A DNA stretch of 64,000 bases from assembly GCA_028710885.1 (NCBI GenBank), contig JAQTTG010000001.1, forward strand, positions 310,001 to 374,000. Reading direction: 5' to 3'. The first letter of the stretch is position 1, and each line of letters starts with the position of its first letter. A program made the position numbers and the translations under genes. This document shows, one piece after another, positions 47,418-53,266 of this stretch. The notes under the pieces are model-generated. The model had not been told where the DNA came from. It saw only the letters and a program-made list of their open reading frames with translations, and made no database searches. Source of the DNA: Sulfuricurvum sp. (GTDB taxonomy: Bacteria; Campylobacterota; Campylobacteria; Campylobacterales; Sulfurimonadaceae).

Positions 47418-47434
47418 ATCCCCTATTCGGGGAT
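47418..47434. terminator. Bidirectional hairpin between convergent genes
   Basis: ATCCCC, loop TATTC, GGGGAT, followed by TGAATTTT on the plus strand, in the 25-base gap between the YceI-like gene and the cytochrome. Confidence 0.5.
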
Positions 47435-47440
47435 TGAATT

Positions 47441-47863
47441 TTACCAGTTACGAATCCGGATATGACACGATGTACATTGTTTTAGAAGCTGTGTATAATC
47501 TTCTAACGCATCATCCATACGACCGGCATCGATAGATGTAATCATATCATCTGAATAGAGACGAAGCATACTCGCTGATTTTTGAGCAAATTTATAAGCA
47601 TATACCTGATCTTTAGGAAGTATAAATTTAATCTCTTCACTCTCTAAAATCTTTAATGTACCTTGGAGCTTTTTAACCCCTAATTTCATATCGTCTGATG
47701 AACTATATAACCCGCCACGCTGAATCTGCTCCATAGCATCCAACATCGAACGCATATCTTTCATAAGCATTGTACGATGATCCATATCTGCTTTTTTATC
47801 CGCTGCATTCAACGAAAATGCAAGGAGAGAAGAAATGAGAAGTGTAGTAAGTCCTTTTTTCAT
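47441..47863 (-). CDS. Periplasmic c-type cytochrome (C-terminal CxxCH)
   Basis: This 140-residue protein has a signal peptide (cleavage near LNA, residue 20) and a helical body. One heme motif CTSCH lies near the C-terminus, as in cytochrome c'/class II cytochromes. It is last in the fccB-soxYZ-Rieske operon with an AAGGGAG site, and is a candidate electron acceptor for the sulfur-oxidising proteins upstream. Confidence 0.75.
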   Translation of the reverse strand: MKKGLTTLLISSLLAFSLNAADKKADMDHRTMLMKDMRSMLDAMEQIQRGGLYSSSDDMKLGVKKLQGTLKILESEEIKFILPKDQVYAYKFAQKSASMLRLYSDDMITSIDAGRMDDALEDYTQLLKQCTSCHIRIRNW

Positions 47864-47873
47864 ATATACTCCC

Positions 47874-48602
47874 TTAATATTGGATAACTTCTTTTGAAAA
47901 CTCTGTTAGTTTAACAGTTTTTGCCGAAATTGAAACTAATTGCTTAGCTTGAGCTGTTCCGCCATAAAACTCTTTAAATTCAGGCTTGAATGCTTTGAAA
48001 TAATCCTGAAATTTATCAGCTCCTAAAATACCTACAGCCCAAATCGTATCATCATCCGCAACTTTTAACACAACTGCTGCTAATGGTTGTTGCGCAGCCC
48101 CAGCTAAATTTTTTGCCCCGGCAGCAGCATCATAGGCTGAAAGATGCGATGAGCATACAATGATCCCACTCTTAGAATATGCCATTGTTGGTGTGGATTT
48201 TGGTACGTATTTAATAAAGCTGTCATTAGGAGTCGGATGCGTTAGCTGATGTGCACAGATTGCTACATAGGCGACTACTGTACGATCTTTTCCGACTCCA
48301 TTTTTCCATACATATGTTTCACCCATTTCAGATTTTAATTCTACCTCTTGACTCGTTGATTCAGGCAAATTGATCAACATACAAGGAGTTGCTGCATACG
48401 GATAATTAAAAATATAAGTTACCTCTTTTTCAAGAGATGATGCTTTAATCGGTACACCTGCCGCATCAACAATTTGTACTTTCTCGTACGCCGCATACAT
48501 ACGTCCATCATCTGCATAGAGAGTTCCACGGATAAGTGAAGGATTTACCGCCACAACCGTAGCGCCTGCCGCCATTATTTTTAAAAAATTTCTACGTTCC
48601 AT
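47874..48602 (-). CDS. Tat-exported Rieske iron-sulfur protein
   Basis: I start at ATG 48602 (MERRNFLKIMAAGATVV), a Tat-type signal. The Rieske ligand pairs are visible as CAHQLTHP (Cys-x-His) near residue 115 and CSSHLSAYD (Cys-x-x-His) near residue 150. The interval is unusual and the usual CTHxGC box is replaced by CAHQL. It is not next to cytochrome bc1 genes but directly follows soxZ, so it probably moves electrons from thiosulfate or sulfide oxidation. An upstream TTG at 48626 would mask the Tat motif. Confidence 0.75.
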   Translation of the reverse strand: MERRNFLKIMAAGATVVAVNPSLIRGTLYADDGRMYAAYEKVQIVDAAGVPIKASSLEKEVTYIFNYPYAATPCMLINLPESTSQEVELKSEMGETYVWKNGVGKDRTVVAYVAICAHQLTHPTPNDSFIKYVPKSTPTMAYSKSGIIVCSSHLSAYDAAAGAKNLAGAAQQPLAAVVLKVADDDTIWAVGILGADKFQDYFKAFKPEFKEFYGGTAQAKQLVSISAKTVKLTEFSKEVIQY

Positions 48603-48651
48603 TCTCAATCTTCCAATAAAAGGCAATCAAGCCATATTTTCTTATTCTATA

Positions 48652-48984
48652 TTATCCAGCCGGAGTAATCGCGACTGTTTTTTGTCCTTTTTCATCTTCT
48701 GAATTGACAAAATCAACTACCAATGTACCGGGAGCCGTTACTTTTAGCGGAAACTGAATTACAGGATTTTGACTGGTCGCCACATCTAAATCAAAATGGG
48801 CAACTATCACGCCGTTATAGGTTGCTGTAATCTCTTTCATATAAAAACGAGGGAACTGTTTACCTGATTCCTTATCTTTTGTAAATCCTGTATCCATTTT
48901 ATGAATAACAATGATTTTTGCTTTTACGACATCACCAACTTTATAACTTTGATCTAAAATTTTAACTACGCCTCTTAATTCCAT
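48652..48984 (-). CDS. soxZ: SoxZ, thiosulfate oxidation carrier partner
   Basis: This 110-residue protein has no signal peptide, as expected because it is exported with SoxY. The SoxZ pattern VGDVVKAKIIVIHKMDTGF...FYMKEITATYNGVIVAHFDLD...GTLVVDFVNSE is clear. SoxYZ carries sulfur intermediates on the SoxY cysteine. An AAGGAG site is present, with 13 bases between soxY and soxZ. Confidence 0.93.
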   Translation of the reverse strand: MELRGVVKILDQSYKVGDVVKAKIIVIHKMDTGFTKDKESGKQFPRFYMKEITATYNGVIVAHFDLDVATSQNPVIQFPLKVTAPGTLVVDFVNSEDEKGQKTVAITPAG

Positions 48985-48997
48985 CTAATTCTCCTTC

Positions 48998-49468
48998 TCA
49001 ACCGCATCCGCCGAGTGCAACTCGGACGTTTTTAGATGACTGAAATATTCTACCTTTATTGGTTTGCGCCAAAATGACTACATCCTGAGTTTGACCCATT
49101 TTTACATTAACATACAAATATGCCATCCCGTTCGCAGGTGTCAAATCAAATGAGATCGCTTTATTGGCTTTATTTTTAGTTGTTAACACCGTAATGTTAC
49201 TAATATAATCATCAGCTTTCATAGGATAATCGACAGTTACTTCGACAGGAACAACTGCACCATTCTCTGGAGCATCAGGGATATTTAGACTCATAATTTT
49301 ACTGCCATCTTCCACTTTTTTACCTCTTAGATACTCATCAAGAGCATCTTTATAAGGTATTTCAATCGCATCTTCAGCTGCACTTAAACCATGCCGAAAA
49401 AGGATAGGATTGAGTAAACCGATCGTTGCTAGGGCAAAAGTCCCTTTAATGAAACTACGTCTTTCCAT
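48998..49468 (-). CDS. soxY: SoxY, sulfur-carrier protein of thiosulfate oxidation
   Basis: This 156-residue protein has a Tat signal (MERRSFIKGTFALATIGLL). The C-terminal GGCG swinging arm whose Cys carries the sulfur substrate is intact (VRVALGGCG). It lies about 110 bases downstream of the fccB stop, with a hairpin between. Confidence 0.93.
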   Translation of the reverse strand: MERRSFIKGTFALATIGLLNPILFRHGLSAAEDAIEIPYKDALDEYLRGKKVEDGSKIMSLNIPDAPENGAVVPVEVTVDYPMKADDYISNITVLTTKNKANKAISFDLTPANGMAYLYVNVKMGQTQDVVILAQTNKGRIFQSSKNVRVALGGCG

Positions 49469-49549
49469 TCTTTCCTCTCTTTCAAAAAAATCATCTTGTA
49501 TTATCTTATCAAGACAAATTTAAACAATCCATAATTGCTTGAATCTGTC

Positions 49550-49572
49550 TTGCACGGCAACAAGCCGCGCAA
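49550..49572 (-). other. Intercistronic hairpin between fccB and soxY
   Basis: On the minus strand TTGCGCGGC, loop TTGTT, GCCGTGCAA form a 9-bp stem with one G-U pair. No T-run follows in the direction of transcription, so an mRNA processing or stability element is more likely than a terminator. Confidence 0.55.
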
Positions 49573-49581
49573 AAAATTGAA

Positions 49582-50937
49582 TTAGTTAAAAAAGTCTCGA
49601 TAAAGACCTTTGCCCCATTCAAGAAGACCTTTACCAGCATCTTCACCCTCTTTGGTATCCCATTTTTCCATTGTACTTGCATCTGCAAAACCAAATGATT
49701 TTTTAGTTGCATCGTATGCATAACCCGCGTTAACGGAAATAGCACGCAATGGATTAGTTTCAACCGCAGAATAACATGTTGTATGCGGAGATGCCCATGT
49801 TTTTTGACTAAGCTCAGTGCCAGCAAGATATTTAACAATATTTCCTGCAACAATGCGCCCTTCAGTATTTGCTGTATTAGCTGATTTACTAAAGCCCATA
49901 GGACGAACGTCCCCTGTACAGAATACGTTAAGATCACCGATAACTTGATACGTAAACGGATCAATATTCGCTTCACCTTTATTGAATACACTGTCTTTAG
50001 CAACACCGGCAATTTCAAGTAATTTATTACCACGAACACGGCTATAAAGTGCAGCATCATTAAACTGTATCTCTTCACCAAGTTCAGTAACAATTTTTTG
50101 TTTATGTGGATCAATACTAGTAATAGTAGTACTTGGCATATATGTGATGTAATCTTTATACAATCGATCAAATGCTGAATGGAAACCATCCGCTTTAATT
50201 GTGATATTTGGATTTTCATCCAAGATTACTACTTTACCTTTGATTTTGTTGCGTTTCATGTAATCCGCAATCAAACAGCTGCGCTCATATGGCCCAGGCA
50301 AACAACGGTAGTTTCCGCCAGGTACTGTTTGAACGAATACACCGCCTTCAAAGTTTTCAATTTTAGATTTAAGGGTTAATGTTTCGCTACCTGCAATAAA
50401 TGCACCAGGAAATTTCGTTTTAAGTGCTGTTTCAAGCTCTGCATCACCATTAGTCCATTTAGAATAGTCATAATCGATACCTGGTGCCAATACAAGGACA
50501 TCATATTTTACAGTACCTTCATTGGTATAAACAATTTTAGCAGTACGATCAATTTCATGAGCAGTTGCTTGTAAAAATGTATAGTTACCGTTACGAGCAC
50601 CTTCCAAAAAGTCATGTGTAATAAATTCTAGTGGGAGAACACCTGTTGCTACCAAGTTACTGATAAAACCAGACATGAATACCGAACGTTTGTCCATCAA
50701 AACAACATCAATATTTGGATTCCCTTTTTTTACATATTTTGCAATAGTAAGTCCTGAGGGACCAGCACCTACGATAACAACTCGTGGTCCTTTAGCAGCG
50801 GGGATTGGAGCGGGTGAAAGCAGAACACCTTTTGCAGCTGCTTTAGCCCCTTCATTTCCTTTTGCATAACCGCTTGATGCAGCCGTAACTGCTGCCAACC
50901 CGGTATATTTCATCGCATCTCTTCTTGATAGCGCCAT
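49582..50937 (-). CDS. Sulfide dehydrogenase flavoprotein (FccB/SoxF family)
   Basis: This 451-residue protein has a Tat signal (SRRDAMKYTGLAAVTAASS). The FAD fold is VVIVGAGPSGLTIAKYV. The redox Cys pair of flavocytochrome c is visible (CLPGPYERSC near residue 210 and TTCYSAVETNPL near 385), and the C-terminal FCSD region with GYAYD follows. It oxidises sulfide to sulfur in the periplasm. The diheme FccA partner is not encoded next to it. It has an AAGGAG site and is first in the cluster with soxY, soxZ, Rieske and cytochrome. Confidence 0.9.
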   Translation of the reverse strand: MALSRRDAMKYTGLAAVTAASSGYAKGNEGAKAAAKGVLLSPAPIPAAKGPRVVIVGAGPSGLTIAKYVKKGNPNIDVVLMDKRSVFMSGFISNLVATGVLPLEFITHDFLEGARNGNYTFLQATAHEIDRTAKIVYTNEGTVKYDVLVLAPGIDYDYSKWTNGDAELETALKTKFPGAFIAGSETLTLKSKIENFEGGVFVQTVPGGNYRCLPGPYERSCLIADYMKRNKIKGKVVILDENPNITIKADGFHSAFDRLYKDYITYMPSTTITSIDPHKQKIVTELGEEIQFNDAALYSRVRGNKLLEIAGVAKDSVFNKGEANIDPFTYQVIGDLNVFCTGDVRPMGFSKSANTANTEGRIVAGNIVKYLAGTELSQKTWASPHTTCYSAVETNPLRAISVNAGYAYDATKKSFGFADASTMEKWDTKEGEDAGKGLLEWGKGLYRDFFN

Positions 50938-52840: not shown

Positions 52841-52903
52841 AATTAACTCCCGTTCGCTATAATTACACCATTTTAGTCTAAGAAATGTTTGAAAAGGATT
52901 AGA

Positions 52904-53266
52904 GTGCGTAAAATTATACTTATAGCTTTGCCTTTTATCGCACTCTTGGCATCCCCCTCTACTTATGAAGAAGGCAAAAGAATCTATTTTTCCAAAGGAT
53001 GCAATGGTTGTCATGGTGTTTCCGCCAGTGGAACCAATACCTATCCAGCACTTGCATTTCGACGAAAACCATTTTTAATTTACAAGCTTAAAAGACTCCG
53101 TGCAAAACAAGGTGACACCCAACTTTCCCAAATGATGATCCCATTTGCTATGGGACTAAACGATGCACAAATCGATGCAGTAACCACCTTTCTTAGCGAA
53201 TATCATGAGCAAGAAAGCGAAAAATATTGTCCGGATGATTCCAATACCGGTGGTGGAAGCTCATGA
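52904..53266 (+). CDS. Class I c-type cytochrome
   Basis: GTG 52904 has AAGGA about six bases upstream; an in-frame TTG at 52889 is less likely. The 120-residue product has a signal peptide, one heme motif CNGCHG near residue 33, and an axial Met in MMIPFAMGL. A Gly/Ser tail follows. It is a small periplasmic electron carrier. It overlaps lpxB by four bases. Confidence 0.88.
   Translation: MRKIILIALPFIALLASPSTYEEGKRIYFSKGCNGCHGVSASGTNTYPALAFRRKPFLIYKLKRLRAKQGDTQLSQMMIPFAMGLNDAQIDAVTTFLSEYHEQESEKYCPDDSNTGGGSS

Follow-up and report, generated by a model that had tools for sequence, protein, structure and literature searches.

Gene content of the cluster

A compact cluster of five genes was analyzed in a 64,000-nucleotide stretch of a Sulfuricurvum sp. 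genome (GenBank assembly GCA_028710885.1, contig JAQTTG010000001.1, positions 310,001 to 374,000 of the forward strand), hereafter referred to as the window. All five open reading frames (ORFs) are located on the minus strand, from position 50937 to 47441, in the order fccB-soxY-soxZ-Rieske-cytochrome (Table 1). The intergenic gaps in this order are 113, 13, 49, and 10 bp; for these values the start of the Rieske gene was set at ATG 48602, which is likelier than the TTG 48626 at which its ORF opens. Twin-arginine motifs were read by eye at the N-termini of FccB, SoxY, and the Rieske protein. A five-gene cluster with three twin-arginine translocation (Tat) signals had been predicted from the sequence earlier, and the ORFs, Pfam matches, ligands, and motifs confirmed it.

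Table 1. Positions of the cluster genes and of an adjoining hairpin in the window
Feature	Position	Strand	Basis
fccB, Tat-exported flavin adenine dinucleotide (FAD) flavoprotein, FCSD/SoxF fold, type A, 451 amino acids	49582..50937	-	Pfam, phmmer, AlphaFold model
soxY, Tat-exported sulfur carrier, C-terminus GGCG	48998..49468	-	PF13501, tree
soxZ, SoxY partner, no signal of its own	48652..48984	-	PF08770
Tat-exported Rieske [2Fe-2S] protein, AioB-like fold, 242 amino acids	47874..48602	-	Ligands, fold match, phmmer
Monoheme cytochrome, C-terminal CxxCH, 140 amino acids	47441..47863	-	CTSCH at residues 130-134
GC hairpin, terminator-like, where the cytochrome and yceI genes converge	47418..47434	.	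Weak; scan

The product of fccB scored 91 bits with the Pfam family FCSD_central, above the cut-off, and matched 1fcd_A in phmmer (E 2.5e-40). The mean predicted local distance difference test score (pLDDT) of its AlphaFold model was 85.1, and the best PDB matches of the model were 5n1t, 3vrd, and 1fcd (Z 46-48, 385-388 residues, root mean square deviation 1.9-2.3). SoxY and SoxZ scored over the cut-offs of PF13501 (107.6 bits) and PF08770 (80.2 bits), respectively. With the NCBIfam models, SoxY reached 112.5 bits against a cut-off of 125 (TIGR04488) and SoxZ 75.6 bits against a cut-off of 76 (TIGR04490).

The Rieske protein scored 16 bits with PF00355 (cut-off 20.3); all 26 Rieske relatives scanned matched this family at E ≤ 0.1. 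The ligands C-x-H/C-x2-H (C124/H126/C158/H161 in ORF numbering) were invariant in 41 of 41 aligned sequences, and no disulfide cysteines accompanied the ligands in any of them. The model of the protein (mean pLDDT 85.1) matched AioB chains first, with template modeling scores of 0.73-0.80 normalized by target length, followed by 1jm1, Sulfolobus Rieske protein II (phmmer E 7.8e-7 for 1jm1). The complex of AioAB with cytochrome c552, 8ed4, was among the fold matches listed. The NCBIfam models placed the protein weakly near SoxL2 and AioB (TIGR02694, 44.4 bits vs. a cut-off of 95.65). A Rieske protein of the bc1/b6f type was ruled out, since no cytochrome b or c1 genes adjoin and the disulfide cysteines are missing.

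The small cytochrome encoded by the last gene looks Sec-exported. Residues C130, C133, and H134 of its heme motif were invariant in 21 aligned sequences. Similarity to PF01322 (cytochrome c') was weak: 18 of the 21 sequences matched at E ≤ 0.1, the best at 1.5e-4, and the window protein scored 14 bits, below the cut-off. A PDB search with the cytochrome profile gave no matches. The protein is possibly a distant four-helix cytochrome of the c' type.

Distribution and the conserved unit

A search of 397 Campylobacterota genomes from 68 genera detected the Rieske protein in 40 genomes and 15 genera. FCSD_central was detected in 88 of the 397, including all 40 with the Rieske protein, which was not found in any FccB-less genome of this set. 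The loci of all 40 copies besides the window's own were surveyed; they belong to 39 other genomes, one of which has two copies. Every one of the 40 has an fccB-type gene near the Rieske gene; the two genes are immediate neighbors at 34 loci and share a strand at 39. A gene for a C-terminal-heme cytochrome is near at 27. SoxYZ was present at 11 loci, or 10 in a stricter recount, in which SoxZ of locus L076 was discounted as matched through clustering only. The association of the flavoprotein with the Rieske protein is far beyond chance. On these counts, the conserved unit consists of the flavoprotein and the Rieske protein, often with the cytochrome, and SoxYZ is an add-on.

In the original prediction, the place of the heme subunit beside the flavoprotein is taken by a C-terminal-heme cytochrome and a Rieske protein that is Tat-exported and not of the bc1 type; the survey of Campylobacterota proposed there upheld this arrangement. 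The same survey did not uphold SoxYZ as a core part, and 7 of the 40 Rieske-bearing genomes have no SoxY at all. Loading of sulfur on SoxY, as had been proposed, therefore cannot be what the flavoprotein-Rieske pair does in general.

A named collection yielded 398 Rieske relatives, the best 80 of which were examined at their loci. An fccB gene was located within 5 kb in 77 of these 80 and SoxY in 13. All 80 were labelled Campylobacterota except one Petrimonas and one 'bacterium'. The locus filed as Petrimonas (L078) contains the cluster with 86% Rieske identity and is probably a mis-binned Sulfuricurvum contig. A plasmid search with the Rieske protein gave no match, and no Rieske relative was found on viral contigs (26 pattern stretches). 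One locus, L104, carries two units in tandem, fccB-Rieske-cytochrome followed by fccB-Rieske-soxY-soxZ-cytochrome.

Exchange of flavoprotein types

With a threshold of 50% identity to that of the window, the flavoproteins of the surveyed loci fell into two types: type A is at least 53% identical to the window protein and type B about 30%. SoxYZ was confined to type A, with which it occurred at 11 of 22 loci (type B, 0 of 18), and took three operon positions, namely between fccB and the Rieske gene, after the Rieske gene, and after fccB. Mapped onto the Rieske tree, these types switch six times in the best tree; counting only well-supported branches, there are at least three switches. Eight congeners of the window carry the cluster beside the same chorismate mutase gene and share further genes where the contig reaches. 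Their Rieske proteins and cytochromes are 76-85% and 75-88% identical to those of the window, respectively, and their FccB proteins are 80-92% identical in two congeners vs. 31-34% in six. In view of these identities at a shared site, we consider the Rieske protein and the cytochrome as the constant electron exit and the flavoprotein as an exchangeable head. The flank of the cluster also contains a gene for a monoheme cytochrome c (window positions 52889-53266), which is kept across the window's genus with either flavoprotein type.

Functional cysteines of the flavoprotein

According to the available part of PMC3504083, the redox disulfide of flavocytochrome c is formed by Cys161 and Cys337, and FAD is held by Cys42. 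These positions were followed in an alignment of 65 full-length flavoproteins, of which 40 are Rieske-linked, the window's included (locus L040, where fccB is cut, was excluded). The Cys161 equivalent was present in all 65 and is Cys212 in the window protein. The Cys337 equivalent was found in none of the 40 Rieske-linked and none of the 16 solo proteins. All 4 heme-linked proteins of Campylobacterota have it, as do 2 of the 5 plasmid references. At the Cys42 site, 34 of the 40 Rieske-linked proteins have Cys and six have Gly, the window protein among the latter (Gly90). Of the three cysteines with a function in flavocytochrome c, the window protein has thus kept one. An extra cysteine, Cys340, lies just ahead of its GD motif for FAD binding. 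This cysteine occurs in 19 of the 40 Rieske-linked proteins vs. 0 of the 25 others, and all 11 full-length flavoproteins with SoxYZ in the operon, including the window's, possess it. Judging from the alignment, Cys340 may be considered a candidate redox partner in place of Cys337. A cysteine follows the Cys337 column at a distance of some residues in 8 of 18 type B proteins.

An ordinary sulfide dehydrogenase, as implied by the original prediction, is not what the alignment indicates, with Cys337 missing and Cys42 missing too in the window clade. The loss of Cys337 is no proof of a dead enzyme, since SoxF proteins in full sox clusters are likewise devoid of it. Nor is it specific to the Rieske link, because both SoxF and solo FccB-type proteins without Cys337 exist. 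On the flavoprotein tree, which carries long-branch warnings, the Rieske-linked proteins appear in more than one place, intermixed with solo proteins.

The missing cysteines could also mean that the unit has no role in sulfide oxidation. In that case the flavoprotein would use another donor, such as polysulfide or a thiol, or would itself be reduced by the cytochrome. All 22 aligned flavoprotein members also match a type III SQR-like model, although far under its cut-off. Against this stand the FCSD fold, which extends across 385 residues, and the recurrent company of SoxYZ or of sox clusters, including that of Cys337-less fccB genes beside soxCDYZ in the Sulfurimonas family. We consider another substrate or direction quite unlikely.

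Two groups of loci outside the Rieske-linked set were recorded. Loci L185-L188 of family f7 contain a canonical-looking FCSD with all three cysteines kept and a one-heme ORF of ~100-130 amino acids beside fccB. Loci L193, L195, and L201 (Sulfurimonas family) contain a type-A-like fccB without Cys337 and without a Rieske gene, situated past soxCDYZ or its DUF302-type neighbor; they represent a second kind of fccB-SoxYZ company.

SoxYZ and other Sox genes in the genomes

SoxYZ is carried inside the cluster by 12 genomes, six of which belong to one family. In the 12 cluster SoxY proteins, the cysteine of the C-terminal tail is kept in all and the GGC motif in 10. On the SoxY tree these proteins are separated by a 100/100 branch from 18 SoxY proteins of soxXYZAB and soxCDYZ clusters; that of L076 forms a long branch. 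Half of the 12 genomes, the window's included, also possess soxXYZAB. In the window genome a complete soxX-soxY-soxZ-soxA-soxB set is located on contig C19, so that there are two SoxY in total; its single SoxC relative, weak and below the cut-off, is followed by a small ORF on contig C5.

The statement of the original prediction that the cluster stands without SoxXAB or FccA is accordingly true of the locus and, as regards SoxXAB, not of the genome. Inspection of the window ORFs revealed neither soxXAB nor bc1 genes beside the cluster. No heme-bearing fccA-like ORF adjoins fccB; genome-wide, fccA was not searched for. The neighbors are yceI, a radical-SAM-like ORF, and genes for chorismate mutase and pyrC-like and lpxB-like products (named by eye, except YceI and chorismate mutase), none of them with a sulfur role. 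An ordinary operon with soxXAB just outside it was thus ruled out, the neighbors being unrelated and soxXYZAB residing on another contig. A scan for promoters and terminators gave no excess over shuffled sequences; terminator-like sites numbered 2 vs. 2.1 expected, so the hairpin evidence is weak.

In the other six of the 12 genomes (G250, G139, G053, G031, G057, and G387), neither SoxA nor SoxC was detected, and no SoxB match exceeded the cut-off; SoxX was not searched for. G139 has a single SoxB match of 106 bits, for which the cut-off is 550. In all six the cluster SoxY is the only SoxY, and SoxYZ can therefore be independent of SoxXAB. The lack of the usual enzymes, which the original prediction noted beside SoxYZ, thus extends to the whole genome in these six and not in the window's. 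Among the 40 Rieske-bearing genomes, SoxB was found over the cut-off in 26 and SoxY in 33; the seven without SoxY have no SoxB either.

These distributions bear on three other explanations of the cluster. The second SoxYZ may be a spare carrier on which the cell's own SoxXAB acts in trans, its placement being a matter of regulatory convenience. The six genomes possessing soxXYZAB would allow this; the six without it would not, and the separate clade of the cluster SoxY and the survival of the SoxYZ-fccB linkage through three gene orders also speak against it, making this explanation quite improbable. Alternatively, the flavoprotein could be a SoxF that keeps the ordinary Sox cycle running by reactivating or re-oxidizing SoxYZ. 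The few electrons involved would drain through the Rieske protein and the cytochrome, and there would be no new catabolic route. The cysteine pattern equals that of SoxF of Ruegeria and Paracoccus, the window genome has soxXYZAB, and, according to the title of a paper, the Chlorobaculum SoxF flavoprotein 'stimulates in vitro thiosulfate oxidation'. Such a repair function would have nothing to serve in the six genomes devoid of SoxA, SoxB, and SoxC, nor any SoxY to act upon in the seven Rieske-bearing genomes without one, and we regard it as unlikely.

The third explanation is that the flavoprotein, the Rieske protein, and the cytochrome replace SoxCD as a molybdenum-free sulfane dehydrogenase acting on SoxYZ-bound sulfane. 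SoxC over the cut-off was present in 0 of 12 genomes with cluster SoxYZ vs. 14 of 28 whose cluster lacks SoxYZ (Fisher p 0.003, uncorrected for kinship), and the 12 genomes represent few lineages. No flavoprotein is known to oxidize sulfane in a six-electron reaction, and six of the genomes also lack SoxB, so that no sulfate would be released. The absence of soxCD from Sulfuricurvum, as given in the available part of PMC4288042, agrees with replacement. Overall, we find it improbable.

That the cluster is a renamed soxCDYZ cluster was ruled out: the relatives examined show the order soxC-soxD-soxY-soxZ and a SoxY of another clade. A congener, G176, contains the cluster without SoxYZ and has soxCDYZ elsewhere in the genome. 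DUF302 genes (L041, 8270-9181; L004, 84-992; L173, 5544-6515) are recurrent sox neighbors. One follows the cluster in L041, with a homologue in L040; in the window genome such a gene is located close to soxB, and in G176 close to soxCDYZ.

Comparison with known systems

The flavoprotein resembles that of FccAB (1fcd, 3vrd, 5n1t) in its fold, Tat export, and the Cys161 equivalent. It differs in having a Rieske gene where the heme subunit would adjoin, and in its lost cysteines (Cys337 in all Rieske-linked proteins, Cys42 in the window clade). SoxF of the Paracoccus-type SoxF/SoxE pair is likewise an FccB-like flavoprotein tied to SoxYZ, and SoxF of Ruegeria and Paracoccus ferrooxidans is Cys337-less as well. 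SoxF, however, stands beside a c-type cytochrome in a full soxB-soxC cluster, whereas the window locus combines the C-terminal-heme cytochrome with a Rieske protein and is devoid of soxAB. On the tree, the Ruegeria and P. ferrooxidans SoxF proteins branch with heme-linked FCSD, across a 100/99 branch from the window flavoprotein, with long-branch warnings. Paracoccus SoxF has sulfide dehydrogenase activity.

The soxY-soxZ-cytochrome c-fccB units of rhizobia (Phyllobacterium and Sinorhizobium meliloti plasmids; L160, 2766-5200, and L162, 2702-5143) are similarly compact, combining FccB, SoxYZ, and a small cytochrome without adjacent soxXAB; unlike the window cluster, they have no Rieske gene and keep both redox cysteines. 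The soxCDYZ clusters of Sulfurimonas and Sulfurovum also join SoxYZ to an electron-draining enzyme without SoxXAB, as described in the available parts of PMC10470523 and PMC7952632, but have SoxCD where the window has the flavoprotein and the Rieske protein, and their SoxY belongs to the other clade. The fcc of one Sulfurimonas is termed 'non-canonical' in what was available of PMC10066037. In arsenite oxidase, AioAB, a Tat-exported Rieske protein of the AioB type is attached to a periplasmic oxidoreductase and passes electrons to a cytochrome. The likeness is fold-based; the partner in the window is a flavoprotein, and no molybdenum subunit is nearby.

The closest published arrangement comes from another phylum. 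For a Sulfurihydrogenibium-like Aquificota bacterium, the order flavocytochrome-dhsU1-Rieske-dhsU2-soxXYZAB was mapped in 2012 (PMC3504083), so an FccB-Rieske-sox neighborhood is already in print. FccB homologues flank the Rieske gene there, sox genes adjoin, and sulfide dehydrogenase activity of DhsU1 was measured. In contrast to the window, a flavocytochrome ORF and the full soxXYZAB adjoin, and DhsU1 keeps all three cysteines. In the available part of that paper, the Rieske gene is drawn with no function discussed. For the Campylobacterota unit no published description was found within a partial coverage of the literature.

Proposed function of the unit

Our favored interpretation, which we consider probable, is that the conserved unit is a periplasmic, Rieske-linked, SoxF-like sulfur-oxidizing module for which SoxYZ is an optional sulfur acceptor. 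We infer that its proteins form a physical complex. The flavoprotein would take electrons from reduced sulfur near FAD, either sulfide or sulfane carried there. The AioB-like Rieske protein would accept them in place of a heme subunit such as FccA or SoxE and pass them to the small C-terminal-heme cytochrome and further to the respiratory chain, as AioB does to a cytochrome in arsenite oxidase. This order and direction of transfer, drawn from gene linkage and the arsenite oxidase analogy, would agree with the electron route of the original prediction, and that route fits the anatomy of the cluster.

In operons with soxYZ, the C-terminal cysteine of SoxY would be the most likely partner delivering or removing the sulfur atom, and sulfide-level sulfur may be loaded or oxidized on SoxYZ without SoxXA or SoxB. 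Such a sulfur path is plausible, given the linkage and the six genomes without the SoxXAB genes.

Several observations weigh against this interpretation. The cytochrome is missing from 13 of the 40 loci, and SoxYZ occurs at a minority of them. Three of the best 80 of the 398 named loci show no nearby fccB (one of them at a contig end). FccB-type proteins devoid of Cys337 and of an adjacent Rieske gene were found at 16 of the 20 non-Rieske loci fetched. The window genome owns soxXYZAB, which the cluster SoxYZ could serve there, and the lost Cys337, together with Cys42 in the window clade, appears to make sulfide a weaker candidate for the substrate.

A more far-reaching version can be put forward tentatively, as a possibility that we do not favor. 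The cluster would then be a stand-alone route without SoxXA, SoxB, and SoxC, in which SoxYZ is charged directly by a flavoprotein with a noncanonical set of cysteines (Cys212 and the additional Cys340), electrons leave through the AioB-like Rieske protein, and the Sox cycle has an alternative start. The flavoprotein would be a plug-in head that was exchanged three or more times, while the Rieske-cytochrome base stayed constant.

The Sox systems of sulfur-oxidizing Campylobacterota are often called 'incomplete', and the KEGG labels fccB, soxY, and soxZ, by which whole genomes are scored, mask the arrangement of this module. Our data suggest a modular system for sulfur oxidation that may dispense with the classical Sox enzymes. 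If this is true, the label fccB would be no evidence of a classical sulfide dehydrogenase, nor soxYZ of thiosulfate oxidation, and there would be an entry to SoxYZ-bound sulfur that bypasses SoxXA and SoxB. The partnership of a flavoprotein with a Rieske subunit of the AioB type, of which no earlier case is known to us, would then illustrate the swapping of electron-transfer subunits among periplasmic oxidoreductases.

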